48,897 nt of DNA, from positions 1 to 48,897 of the IMG/VR virus record IMGVR_UViG_3300025543_004178; one strand, written 5' to 3'. This stretch comes from a virus. The notes under the pieces were generated by a model, which made no database searches, was not told where the DNA came from, and saw only the letters and a list, made by a program, of their open reading frames with translations. A program made the position numbers and the translations under genes. Each line of letters begins with the position of its first letter. Positions within the stretch are counted from its first letter, which is position 1. Shown in pieces: positions 6,791 to 41,821 of the stretch.

Positions 6791-7870
6791 TCAACCAATG
6801 GCAGGAGCAGTGAGAGCAACAGGAGTGTTCTCGACAGCAGCCAGGTCCAGAGGGAAGTTGTGGGCGTTACGCTCGTGCATAACTTCCATTCCCAGACCAG
6901 CACGGTTGAGCACGTCTGCCCAAGTGTTGATCACACGACCCTGAGAGTCGATAACGGACTGGTTGAAGTTGAAACCGTTCAGGTTAAATGCCATCGTGGA
7001 AACACCCAGAGCGGTGAACCAGATGCCAACAACGGGCCATGCAGCAAGGAAGAAGTGCAGGGAGCGTGAGTTGTTGAATGAAGCGTATTGGAAGATCAGA
7101 CGACCAAAGTAACCGTGAGCGGCAACGATGTTATAAGTTTCTTCTTCTTGACCGAACTTGTAACCATAGTTCTGTGACTCGTTCTCAGTGGTTTCACGAA
7201 CCAGCGAGGAAGTAACGAGCGAACCGTGCATTGCAGAGAAGAGTGAACCTCCGAAGACACCTGCAACTCCCAGCATGTGGAAGGGGTGCATCAGGATGTT
7301 GTGCTCAGCCTGGAAGACCAGCATGTAGTTGAAAGTACCACTGATGCCGAGGGGCATCGCGTCAGAGAAAGAACCTTGACCGAAAGGATAGACCAGGAAA
7401 ACAGCAGAAGCAGCAGCGACAGGTGCGCTGTAAGCAACGCAGATCCAAGGACGCATTCCGAGACGGTAGGAAAGTTCCCACTCACGTCCCATGTAAGCAT
7501 AGATGCCGATGAGGAAGTGGAAAACTACGAGTTGGAAAGGACCTCCGTTATAGAGCCATTCATCAAGAGATGCGGCTTCCCAAATGGGATAGAAGTGGAG
7601 ACCGATTGCGTTCGAAGAAGGAATAACAGCACCAGAGATGATGTTGTTTCCATACATGAGTGAACCAGCAACGGGTTCACGGATGCCGTCGATGTCCACA
7701 GGGGGAGCACCGATGAAGGCAATGATGAAACAGGTTGTAGCAGCCAGAAGGCAAGGAATCATCAGGACGCCGAACCAACCAACATAAAGACGGTTGTCGG
7801 TGCTGGTGACCCAGTTACAAAACTGTTCCCAAGAAGTATTCTGTTTTGAGCGAGTAAGAGTTGCAGACAT
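6791..7870 (-). CDS. psbA: Photosystem II reaction-centre protein D1
   Basis: Full-length 359-aa D1 with no intron. The Mn-cluster ligands are all present (D170 in [11 protein letters not shown]189-H190 in FQAEHN, H332-E333 in [10 protein letters not shown]342 and A344 in FPLDLA), followed by a 15-residue C-terminal extension of the kind removed by CtpA. Residue 130 is Glu ([11 protein letters not shown]), as in the high-light D1 form of Synechococcus. D1 turns over fast in light, so phage expression keeps electron flow alive. It has its own promoter (8028-8059) and a structured leader. Confidence 0.99.
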
Positions 7871-7920
7871 TTTAGATAAGTCTAAGTAGGTCCATCAGGG
7901 AAATGGTGGAGATACTTATT

Positions 7921-7992
7921 TCCTCGCCACCCTTAGACGAGGATATGAGAGACGGATTGGTTGCCCTGCCTAGTCTCGGTCAAACGGCAGGG
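7921..7992 (-). other. Structured 5' leader of psbA (two hairpins)
   Basis: The roughly 150-nt untranslated leader between the promoter and the psbA ATG can form two stems: CCCTGCC/GGCAGGG (7964-7970 with 7986-7992) and TCCTCG/CGAGGA (7921-7926 with 7938-7943). Cyanobacterial psbA leaders are known to control mRNA stability, so a similar role is inferred. Apart from this leader and the promoter, 7871-8055 holds no gene. Confidence 0.55.
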
Positions 7993-8027
7993 GTTCACAC
8001 AACGTTACATTTCGTAAGTCGTTGGTG

Positions 8028-33867: not shown

Positions 33868-34604
33868 AACTTGAATGTAGGAATGGGATCCATCTTGTGT
33901 TTGTTACGGGCGTTGAACCAGTGAAGTTCCCTAACAGCAGGACCAGTTCCAGTCTCCATTGCCAGCTCCAGATCCTCATAAGAGGCACCCAGTTGATCTT
34001 CGTCGGTTCTCTTGTCGTCCCAGAGACCGTCAGTGGGTTTTGCTTCGATAATATCTTGACTTACGCCCAGATGCTTTCCAAGTTCCCATACTTCAGTCTT
34101 ATAAAGGTCAGCGATGGGAGCAATGTCCACACCACCGTCTCCATATTTAGTGTAAAACCCAACACCATAATCTTCGACCTTGTTACCTGTGCCGACAACC
34201 AAACCAGAGTTCTCACCAGCAATCTGGTAAAGGGTAACCATTCTCAGACGTGAGCGGGTGTTGGCAAGTGCCAGTGGGTCCTGAGCATAACCAGACAAAG
34301 ACTTCTTAAACTGTTCAAACACTTCAGTTAGATCAAACTGAACCATCGAAACGTTTTCATAATTTTCAGTCAACCAAAGAAGATGATTGATTGAAAGTGT
34401 TCGTTGTCCTTCATCCTGGTGAATTGGCATTCCAATTACATAAACAGGAAGTCCAGTTTCAGCACAGAGAGTTGAAACCACAGCAGAGTCGATGCCACCA
34501 GAGACACCGACCACAAATGATTTCAACCCACTTCCTTTAAGATAATCAGACAGCCACGAGGTTATTCTCGTTTTCAGTTTGTCGTAGTCCTTGATTCTGT
34601 TCAT
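33864..34604 (-). CDS. nadE: NAD+ synthetase, ammonia type
   Basis: 246 aa from ATG 34604; the longer frame enters the upstream gene. VVGVSGGIDSAVVSTL (PP-loop), GTGNKVEDYGVGFYTKYGDG, DIAPIADLYKTEVWELG and PTDGLWDDKRTDEDQLG are the classic NadE motifs. Makes NAD from deamido-NAD. In this cluster it may feed the NAD-dependent dehydrogenases and epimerases, or restore NAD against host depletion. Confidence 0.96.
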   Translation of the reverse strand: MNRIKDYDKLKTRITSWLSDYLKGSGLKSFVVGVSGGIDSAVVSTLCAETGLPVYVIGMPIHQDEGQRTLSINHLLWLTENYENVSMVQFDLTEVFEQFKKSLSGYAQDPLALANTRSRLRMVTLYQIAGENSGLVVGTGNKVEDYGVGFYTKYGDGGVDIAPIADLYKTEVWELGKHLGVSQDIIEAKPTDGLWDDKRTDEDQLGASYEDLELAMETGTGPAVRELHWFNARNKHKMDPIPTFKL

Positions 34605-35646
34605 TGTCAATCTGTTGCTTAATCCAATTATAAGTTCTTGAGATGCCTTCTTCAAGAGTCATCCCATAATCCCATCCTAATTCTTTACGGATGACATCGT
34701 TGTTACTGTTGCGACCACGAACACCCAAAGGTGCATCCAATTTGTGACGACGCTGAACTGCCTTGCCAGAAACTTTGGCAACAGTCTCAACCAATTGATT
34801 GATGGTGACCATTTCTTCGGAACCAATGTTCACTGGTCCGATGAACTCAGAGTCCATCAATCGACGAGTTGCTTCGATGCACTCATCGACATATAGAAAA
34901 GATCGAGTTTGTTCACCGTCTCCCCAGACTTCGATTGCTCCACCAACTTCTGGGAGTCTTCCGACTTTACGGCAGATGGCAGCAGGAGCCTTCTCTCGAC
35001 CCCCGTCCCAAGTTCCCTCTGGGCCAAAGATATTATGGTAACGGGCAACACGCACAGCAATACCATAATTCCGATGGTATGCAAAGTAAAGTCTTTCAGA
35101 GAATAACTTTTCCCATCCGTATTCGCTATCTGGATTAGCGGGGTATGCAGATTGTTCACGGCAGTCGGGGTTGTTAGGATCGAGTTGGTTGTGTTCTGGA
35201 TACATGCAGGCAGATCCAGAATAGAAGATCTTAGTGTAGTTTCGACCAGTCCTCTCGTTCCTTTGACGTTGACTCTCCAGTACGTTTAGGTTGATGGTTG
35301 CAGAGTTATGCATGATATCTGCATCGTTTTCACCAGTGAAGACAAAACCTGCTCCACCCATGTCAGCAGCAAACTGATAAATCTCATCAAATGAGTGAAC
35401 ATAACGATAAGGAACTTCCTTGTAGAAGTTACCTGCTGTTCCCTTGTACTCCAGGACACGACCAACGAAGTCGAAGTCTCGGAGGTCACCAAGAATAAAC
35501 TCATCCGCTTCAGAGTCTGAGAACTCAGGACGCTTGAGGTCTACACCTCGGACCCAATAACCCTCAGACTTGAGGCGCTTCACCATATGACTTCCAATAA
35601 ATCCACCAGCACCCAGAACGAGTGCCTTCTTCTGATATTGAGACAT
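34546..35646 (-). CDS. GDP-mannose 3,5-epimerase-like extended SDR
   Basis: 366 aa. GAGGFIGSHMVKRL, YQFAADMGGAGFV, YSGSACMYPEHNQ, SEYGWEKLFSER (Tyr-x-x-x-Lys), YHNIFGPEGTWDGGREKAP and MVTINQLVETVA strongly resemble plant and bacterial GME, which turns GDP-D-mannose into GDP-L-galactose. That product could be the donor for the GT11 genes. Overlaps nadE by 59 bp; first gene of the sugar transcript. Confidence 0.9.
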   Translation of the reverse strand: MSQYQKKALVLGAGGFIGSHMVKRLKSEGYWVRGVDLKRPEFSDSEADEFILGDLRDFDFVGRVLEYKGTAGNFYKEVPYRYVHSFDEIYQFAADMGGAGFVFTGENDADIMHNSATINLNVLESQRQRNERTGRNYTKIFYSGSACMYPEHNQLDPNNPDCREQSAYPANPDSEYGWEKLFSERLYFAYHRNYGIAVRVARYHNIFGPEGTWDGGREKAPAAICRKVGRLPEVGGAIEVWGDGEQTRSFLYVDECIEATRRLMDSEFIGPVNIGSEEMVTINQLVETVAKVSGKAVQRRHKLDAPLGVRGRNSNNDVIRKELGWDYGMTLEEGISRTYNWIKQQIDNEQNQGLRQTENENNLVAV

Positions 35647-35989: not shown

Positions 35990-36007
35990 GTGCGTGAGGT
36001 AGGCTCG

Positions 36008-36085
36008 CCACTTGTTTTTGGGAGAAACAAGAAACTCAGAGGTCATCGACTCCACCACTTGCTCTTTAGAGAAGCAAGAAACTCA
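36008..36085 (-). repeat. Two tandem hairpin-forming repeats
   Basis: Two units of about 31 nt (36008-36038 and 36055-36085, period 47) share GAGTTTCTTG and CAAGTGG and each folds into a stem (CTTGTTT/AAACAAG and CTTGCT/AGCAAG). Arms covary between units (G-C for A-T), indicating selection on structure. The gap 35990-36127 has no gene. Confidence 0.65.
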
Positions 36086-36127
36086 TGGGGTTCATCCCGA
36101 CCAGTGCTGTTAGAGTCCATCCGTGAC

Positions 36128-38619: not shown

Positions 38620-38622
38620 AGG

Positions 38623-38696
38623 CGGGACTGATGGGACTTGAACCCACGACTTCCTGCGTGACAGGCAGGCGCTCTAACCGACTGAGCTACAACCCC
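38623..38696 (-). tRNA. tRNA-Asp (GUC)
   Basis: Acceptor GGGGTTG/CAGTCCC, anticodon loop CTGTCAC (GTC), T-loop GTTCAAGTC. 74 nt. It begins 2 nt after the tmRNA coding piece. Confidence 0.92.
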
Positions 38697-38697
38697 A

Positions 38698-38925
38698 AGA
38701 GGGAGGTTGCCCTCCCCGCAGGTCAGAGTGCTATTGCTTAAACAGCAACGGCAGTCCTCCTAAAGGATACAATTTTATTTGCATCTGTTGTTTGCTTATC
38801 CAAGCAGGTTTCAGTTATAACCCATAACACCCTGTCGAAACCATTGCGTCCCCATGAGTGGAGACGAGGAGAATCGAACTCCTGTCCAAGACATCGGTAT
38901 TATAACCTATTCCTCCGAAGAGGAA
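38698..38925 (-). ncRNA. ssrA: Circularly permuted two-piece tmRNA
   Basis: Minus strand, acceptor piece first (38925 to 38859): T-arm AGGAG-TTCGATT-CTCCT and 3' strand CGTCTCC plus A. A 5-nt spacer (38854-38858) follows, then the coding piece starts GGGGACG-CAATGGTTTCGACAGG. The acceptor stem GGGGACG/CGTCTCC has G3-U70, the alanine identity pair, and GGTGTTAT pairs with ATAATACC of the other piece (P2). The tag reads ANKIVSFRRTAVAV then stop, with resume codon GCA. It ends with hairpin GGGAGG-gcaa-CCTCCC. It rescues stalled ribosomes. Piece ends are estimates. Confidence 0.93.
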
Positions 38926-38999
38926 AGCCTTCTGTCGGACTTGAACCGACGACCTACGGTTTACAAAACCGTTGCTCTATCCAGCTGAGCTAAGAAGGC
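38926..38999 (-). tRNA. tRNA-Thr (UGU)
   Basis: Acceptor GCCTTCT/AGAAGGC, anticodon loop TTTGTAA (TGT), T-loop GTTCAAGTC. Directly upstream of the tmRNA acceptor piece with no spacer. Confidence 0.93.
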
Positions 39000-39093: not shown

Positions 39094-39462
39094 TCAAAAA
39101 TGAGGACCCGCTCCAGACTGCCAAACGTTCTCTGAACCGCCTTGGGGTTGGGGATCCAGTTGAACCGTTGTGTTCCCTTTGGCAGTTGATTTATTGTACA
39201 TCACCTCGTGGATGTTGTCAACCTCTTTTGATTGAGGTCCTTCAGCAAGTCTTTGATAGAGTTCTTCATTCTTTTGCTTGACATACTCTATCACCTTTTC
39301 GGTCTTAGGTGCTTCACCAAACCAAGAATCACTTGGAGTTACCACAGGTGCAGGAACTGTTTGATAAGGTTTCTGAACCACTTTTGGTTCCTGTGGTTCA
39401 ACTAGAACCTTGACAGGTTTCAAGACAATTGCCTTGACTAATTTTTTTATTTTGCTGATCAT
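39094..39462 (-). CDS. Hypothetical protein, 122 aa
   Basis: Basic Val/Lys/Pro-rich N-terminal third (KKLVKAIVLKPVKVLVEP), a helical middle and a Gly/Gln-rich low-complexity end. No membrane segment or motif. It lies between endolysin and the tRNA-Arg; probably last gene before the RNA cluster. Confidence 0.65.
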   Translation of the reverse strand: MISKIKKLVKAIVLKPVKVLVEPQEPKVVQKPYQTVPAPVVTPSDSWFGEAPKTEKVIEYVKQKNEELYQRLAEGPQSKEVDNIHEVMYNKSTAKGNTTVQLDPQPQGGSENVWQSGAGPHF

Positions 39463-41383: not shown

Positions 41384-41821
41384 CTAAGGCATGGGCGGCA
41401 CAAAGTAATCCTTGCGGTAATACCTGCCAAGAATGTTGCTATTATAAAATGCAGGAGTGCCATCTGTCAAGCTTTCAGTCAAGACATTGTGAAGAAACAA
41501 CTGGCGCGTCTCTTCGTAGTTAACACGTCCTGTGGATTTGTGGAGGGATAAGATTTCCCTTTTGAAGTTTTCCACACCCAGAAGTTTGATGTCCTCTTTC
41601 AATTCATCGGAGGACCCGTAATACTTTTTCCAGTCTGACTCAATTTTTACTTTTCTTTTCTTCCCTCTGGGCTTTCGATGAAACCAGAAAACCTTTCTTC
41701 CAATGTAGAGTCGGTCGTTGGTGAGATTGGTAATTTTATAAACAAAACCAAAGTTATCCCCAATATCGTCAGAGGTAAAAGGGACTTCAAGATACAACCA
41801 GGGGTTTTCGTAATCACACAC
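41384..41821 (-). CDS. GIY-YIG-like protein (possible homing endonuclease)
   Basis: 145 aa. FGFVYKITNLTNDRLYIGRK has the F/G-V-Y...Y-I-G core, with W-K-K-Y-Y-G-S-S and a downstream Glu (NYEETRQLF) as in short GIY-YIG domains of T4-like phages. A CTAAATAA motif (41841-41848) lies upstream. Located beside nrdB, where intron or intercistronic endonucleases are common. Activity inferred. Confidence 0.72.
   Translation of the reverse strand: MCDYENPWLYLEVPFTSDDIGDNFGFVYKITNLTNDRLYIGRKVFWFHRKPRGKKRKVKIESDWKKYYGSSDELKEDIKLLGVENFKREILSLHKSTGRVNYEETRQLFLHNVLTESLTDGTPAFYNSNILGRYYRKDYFVPPMP

Follow-up and report, generated by a model that had tools for sequence, protein, structure and literature searches.

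A permuted two-piece tmRNA with a Val-Ala-Val tag ending in a cyanophage genome fragment

Results and discussion

A permuted tmRNA gene is carried at 38698-38925 on the minus strand of the IMG/VR virus record IMGVR_UViG_3300025543_004178, whose entire 48,897 bases were analysed and are referred to here as the window. The encoded tag ends in Val-Ala-Val, and on the evidence of the sequences compared below this ending is a real variant and not an error. With slightly better than even confidence, the RNA is read as a phage-borne working copy of the two-piece tmRNA known from cyanobacteria that would keep ribosome recycling while relaxing the degradation of tagged proteins. The observations behind this reading are the gene order, both helices between the pieces, the alanine identity pair, the open tag frame and the conservation across phages.

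Identification and architecture of the tmRNA

ARAGORN called a permuted tmRNA (tmRNA*) with the tag ANKIVSFRRTAVAV. The RNA was also matched over its full length by two Rfam covariance models, cyano_tmRNA (RF01851; 122.7 bits, E 6.8e-33, passing the family cut-off of 70 bits) and tmRNA_permuted (RF04321; 104.3 bits, E 2.2e-19, full length 1-213). A first-pass annotation had proposed a permuted two-piece tmRNA on a phage and suggested a covariance-model search as a check, and its proposal is confirmed by ARAGORN and both models. Its description of the architecture also held: the acceptor half precedes the coding half by 5 nt (intervening segment CTCAT, 38854-38858), a 7-bp acceptor stem P1 (CGUCUCC/GGGGACG) contains G3-U70, and an 8-bp P2 (GGUUAUAA/UUAUAACU) includes one terminal G-U pair. 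The features of the gene are as follows, with their basis in brackets.

38859-38925, minus strand: acceptor piece (sequence, Rfam alignment)
38910-38925, minus strand: hairpin UUCCUC-UUCG-GAGGAA at the 5' end of the acceptor piece, the first helix of the RF01851 alignment (sequence)
38900-38907, minus strand: P2, acceptor-piece strand GGUUAUAA (covariation)
38868-38882, minus strand: T arm GGAGUUCGAUUCUCC (RF01851 alignment, sequence)
38860-38866, minus strand: 3' half of the P1 acceptor stem, CGUCUCC, with the discriminator A at 38859
38854-38858, minus strand: 5-nt intervening segment, CTCAT (sequence)
38853 down to about 38700, minus strand: coding piece (sequence, Rfam alignment)
38847-38853, minus strand: 5' half of the P1 acceptor stem, GGGGACG, with which the coding piece begins (G3-U70 identity pair)
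38834-38844, minus strand: D-loop-like core AUGGUUUCGAC (RF01851 alignment, sequence)
38813-38820, minus strand: P2, coding-piece strand UUAUAACU (covariation)
38794-38805, minus strand: small hairpin GCUUGGAUAAGC ahead of the resume codon (RF01851 alignment)
38738-38782, minus strand: tag reading frame ANKIVSFRRTAVAV, closed by TAA after a final Val codon, GTT, at 38741-38743 (ARAGORN, sequence)
38719-38762, minus strand: extended P5-like hairpin around the stop codon, within which the RTAVAV-stop module occupies 38724-38758 (covariation)
38701-38716, minus strand: 3'-terminal hairpin of the coding piece, GGGAGG-GCAA-CCUCCC, the last helix of the RF01851 alignment

The gene does not encode a CCA end behind the discriminator A (38859). 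A resume codon and a short, stop-ended tag frame are present, and the complete appended peptide would be A-ANKIVSFRRTAVAV, since the charged alanine adds one residue.

Covariation in P1 and P2 was assessed over 17 distinct combinations of the two helices from cyanophage loci. In this set, 98% of the pair cells are standard, two-sided changes occur in 7 of the 15 pairs, and the covariation score was matched by none of 500 shuffles, while sliding the partners against each other reduced pairing to 44-60%. Since each of P1 and P2 has one strand in the acceptor piece and the other in the coding piece, this covariation supports pairing between the two pieces. The G3-U70 pair is invariant, both in the 17 distinct rows (17/17) and in all 48 sequences with a full 7-bp stem, a count for which pairing, but not G-U, was required. 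The intervening segment of two relatives contains a complete tRNA-Tyr(GTA) (L025, 5937-6020; L019, 1228-1310), an arrangement that would fit excision by tRNA-processing enzymes.

The 3' part of the RNA departs from the family model. The helix/pseudoknot region that RF01851 places between the stop-codon helix and the terminal hairpin is deleted in the window, and the RNAs of the Val-Ala-Val (VAV) type in general are without the downstream pseudoknot segment, in place of which a long hairpin encloses the stop codon. Other cyanophage tmRNAs have a pseudoknot after the stop codon, the second stem of which is paired in 50 of 50 cells (shuffled mean 39.7; 50/50 reached by 0 of 2000 shuffles). Single-sequence pseudoknot scores were no better than those of shuffles, and the covariation test alone is decisive here. 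As the window exceeds the RF01851 cut-off, the absent pseudoknot was treated as a variant feature and not as a reason for exclusion.

Within the stop-codon hairpin, the partner of tag codon 8 is a triplet further downstream, the pairs being AGG-CCU in the window and AGG-CCU, AGC-GCU, CGC-GCG or GAG-CUC across phages. This pairing is kept in 100% of cases and its covariation score was reached by 0 of 500 shuffles, which explains the variation between R, S and E at tag position 8. A role of the AGGAGG within the tag as a Shine-Dalgarno sequence was rejected, since codon 8 covaries with the downstream triplet and the hairpin accounts for the motif.

Genomic context

The window encodes psbA and psbD, together with ribonucleotide reductase, primase, ThyX and sugar-nucleotide genes, the names of which were partly assigned by reading the protein sequences. 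The closest isolates are Synechococcus myoviruses, with about 75-78% identity to the window and shared synteny. The window therefore reads as part of a T4-like Synechococcus myovirus genome that carries both photosystem genes. The tmRNA lies in a tRNA array, with the following elements around it.

39193-39221, minus strand: promoter-like site TTGACA-17-TACAAT upstream of tRNA-Arg (consensus scan)
38926-38999, minus strand: tRNA-Thr(TGT), its discriminator base abutting the first base of the acceptor piece (ARAGORN)
38621-38696, minus strand: tRNA-Asp(GTC), directly downstream of the tmRNA (ARAGORN)

The gene had been described as sitting flush between tRNA-Thr and tRNA-Asp, and the gaps are indeed 0 nt on the tRNA-Thr side and 4 nt between the end of the terminal hairpin and tRNA-Asp. 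A single processed transcript for the array is only suggested, by these tight flanks and by the tRNA-Tyr that related phages carry between the two pieces. The promoter-like site is weak evidence for transcription of the array, as the consensus scan found 9 sites in total where 4.6 were expected.

Several other elements were observed in the window on the minus strand. A SegE-type GIY-YIG endonuclease gene (41384-41821) lies between nrdB and the tRNA-tmRNA island, a wcaG RNA motif (35997-36086, 59.8 bits) is located near a sugar epimerase gene (34546-35646), and a PhotoRC-II RNA motif (7908-8007, 52.5 bits) is found immediately upstream of psbA (6791-7870).

Cyanophage tRNA arrays gain and lose genes, and in S-SM2, RN05-S and S-H68 the tRNA island next to nrdB has a similar order but contains no tmRNA. 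This would be compatible with a functionless, decayed host fragment acquired with the island. However, the compensatory changes in P1, P2 and P5 and the intact tag in 21 sequences make this explanation extremely improbable.

Conservation of the tag ending

The RF01851 consensus at the tag end is GUgGCuGcc-uga, i.e. V-A-A-stop, which is rather a typical than a defining property of the family. The first-pass annotation had regarded the V-A-V end as unusual, and this assessment was upheld by the contrast with the Rfam consensus and by the presence of V-A-V in 21 of 21 module-bearing sequences. The same or nearly the same tags were found in further viral contigs. When the 3' module was scanned for with Val required as its final codon, 20 viral contigs were returned, and the identical 20 came back when this codon was left wholly free; GTT is the last codon in all of them and in the window (21/21). 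Except at the last codon, the module pattern was fixed by the analyst beforehand, so the high identity within the module is partly due to ascertainment; this does not apply to the last codon or to the bases ahead of the pattern (AGGA, codon 8). The upstream tmRNA parts of the VAV types are as little as 29-40% identical. The tag codons show synonymous changes with AVAV retained, and because GTT itself is invariant, protein and RNA constraint are inseparable at the last codon. A search with the module against 50,697 phage records revealed no phage tmRNA with the AVAV module, and the V-A-V ending was found in no isolate phage record.

The other cyanophage tags compared here end in VAA, ATA, VTA or SCA, and the basis for the contrast with hosts is the V-A-A consensus of Rfam together with the VAA-type phage copies. 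The endings SCA, ATA and VTA occur in S-CBWM1 (L077, 2940-3257) and in L004, L010, L014, L028, L031 and L050. Many cyanophage tags also have an extra AxTSDxA-like start before ANNIV.

Some cyanobacterial hosts might themselves carry AVAV, in which case the phages would have copied the tmRNA along with an ordinary degron for the host protease. Cyanobacterial tags commonly stop with TGA. A genome scan gave no VAV match, but it required TAA or TAG, and the VAA control of the same form recovered only Microvirga and no cyanobacterium, probably for this reason, so that the VAV zero says nothing about hosts. A plasmid search gave no cyanobacterial match. Such a host origin is considered unlikely, as the Rfam consensus is V-A-A-stop and the phage tags closest to it, e.g. 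that of L009, end in APVAA. Moreover, the VAV types are without the downstream helix/pseudoknot of the consensus, and the best-scoring VAA type, L009, reaches 190 bits compared to 123-159 bits for the closest VAV types.

Mosaic and divergent relatives

In the relative L021, the acceptor piece and the start of the coding piece are 94% and 96% identical to those of the VAA-type phage L002, whereas the tag core matches the window (95% identity) far better than L002 (52%). Likewise, the upstream part of L071 is similar to RNAs of the S-CAM1 type and its tag is similar to that of the window. From these mosaics, the tag-end module appears to have been transferred between tmRNA backbones by recombination inside the gene. 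Another apparent recombinant, L007, matches the window exactly in P1 and the acceptor piece and is L005-like at the tag end and 3' end.

The movement of the module between backbones and the invariance of GTT itself would also be expected if the last residue were neutral and Val were kept only because GTT lies in the loop of a stop-codon hairpin that is constrained and mobile between phages as a unit. This seems very unlikely, since GTT is predicted to be unpaired in the loop while the positions around it vary, and Ala is retained in the VAA-type phages, whose hairpin is a different one.

Permuted tmRNA-like sequences with an RTAVAV tag, in which CTGGTTATCGACC replaces ATGGTTTCGAC, were found in L086 (about 1060-1290), L088, L089 and L091. 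All four are below the Rfam tmRNA cut-offs and did not receive a correct call by ARAGORN; two more divergent sequences, L082 and L090, are cut by the end of the locus. The records of L086, L089, L090 and L091 carry photosystem reaction-centre genes and are therefore also cyanophages. As the set includes permuted tmRNAs that are missed by standard models, phage tmRNAs are probably undercounted.

The VAV-type tmRNA of L081 (552-862; tag ANKIVKFERTAVAV) has a T loop without TTCGAAT (AAGGG-GGCAGTA-CCCTT), and its T arm is perhaps degenerating or altered, a point that weighs against the reading as a working copy. The permuted tmRNAs of the isolates Sf-FS3, S-SSM7, S-CAM1 and S-CAM3 (L027-L030) are unannotated in GenBank, where several of the records draw 'hypothetical protein' ORFs over the gene.

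Proposed function

Neither SmpB nor ClpP was found in 15 phage records, many of them fragments, although positive controls were detected, which indicates that host factors are needed. In the working copy that we favour, the array would be transcribed together with its tRNAs, and host tRNA-processing enzymes would free the two pieces and add CCA. Charging with alanine would be carried out by the host alanyl-tRNA synthetase. Host SmpB would then deliver the tmRNA to ribosomes stalled on broken mRNAs, which are expected to accumulate in lytic infection, and the ribosome would append A-ANKIVSFRRTAVAV before being recycled for phage protein synthesis. The best-supported reading is thus that a phage-supplied rescue RNA keeps ribosome turnover going during infection.

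With the conserved change of its last residue from Ala to Val, the tag would most likely still be a substrate for host ClpXP, though a weaker one. In E. coli, ClpX recognition relies mainly on the terminal Ala-Ala, and changing either alanine raises KM with little effect on Vmax (PMC7652416). In Synechocystis, ssrA tags ending in AAV are described as weaker than LVA but still as degradation tags (PMC3446811; PMC9486961), although AAV differs from LAA at two positions and is therefore an imperfect proxy for VAV. Judged from these two organisms, it is plausible that the V-A-V tag acts as a weaker ClpXP degron and that rescued proteins are spared through this weakened recognition. Ribosome recycling would be retained, while the breakdown of tagged proteins would be relaxed.

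A stronger effect would result if the phage tag were a non-degron, with tagged proteins spared outright, or if the RNA competed for SmpB and thereby blocked host quality control. The final Val is absolutely conserved on very different backbones, and the tRNA-like-only form of DS6A inhibits host tmRNA (PMC11915505; PMC4131195). Both explanations are nevertheless quite improbable: Val is small and hydrophobic, AAV tags still function as degradation signals in the Synechocystis studies cited above, charged terminal residues might be expected of a true non-degron, and the presence of a complete tag frame speaks against a pure SmpB sponge. A bolder extension is regarded as rather unlikely. Here, a cyanophage-specific 3' module lineage, consisting of the RTAVAV-stop hairpin without a pseudoknot, would spread across backbones and rewire trans-translation so that ribosomes are recycled and rescued proteins are no longer destroyed.

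Phage tmRNAs have been catalogued, but no published account of the function of their tags was found in the literature searched. A fixed non-alanine tag end across divergent cyanophages makes it testable whether the virus wants rescued proteins degraded.

Comparison with known systems

Two-piece tmRNAs in marine phages, including cyanophages, are an already published kind, of which the V-A-V ending is a variant. Marine phages have been reported to carry two-piece tmRNAs, those of cyanophages grouping with cyanobacteria (PMC9004378), and 79 phage tmRNAs are listed in a database from 2025 (PMC11915505). Within the limited literature searched, no paper on phage tmRNA tag endings and no published tag peptides were found.

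The window shares with the cyanobacterial two-piece tmRNA (RF01851, RF04321) the permuted order, the tRNA-like domain, G3-U70, P2 between the pieces, an ANNIV-type tag and the terminal hairpin. It differs in its V-A-V instead of V-A-A tag end, in the absence of the helix/pseudoknot before the terminal hairpin, and in its very short intervening segment of 5 nt. The permuted tmRNAs of the cultured or single-cell cyanophages S-CAM1, S-CAM3, S-SSM7, Sf-FS3, S-CBWM1 and AG-345-P14 are the same kind of gene, often beside tRNA genes. However, their tags end in VAA, VTA, ATA or SCA, most with the extra AxTSDxA-like start, and the surveyed relatives of this type retain the covarying downstream pseudoknot, unlike the window. 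The two-piece tmRNA of the methylophage Melnitz and of pelagiphages is also borne by marine phages, but is of the alphaproteobacterial type with a glutamine riboswitch in the locus (PMC9004378). The tmRNA fragment of mycobacteriophage DS6A is a further phage-borne relative, which consists of the tRNA-like domain only, has no tag and is inhibitory in E. coli.
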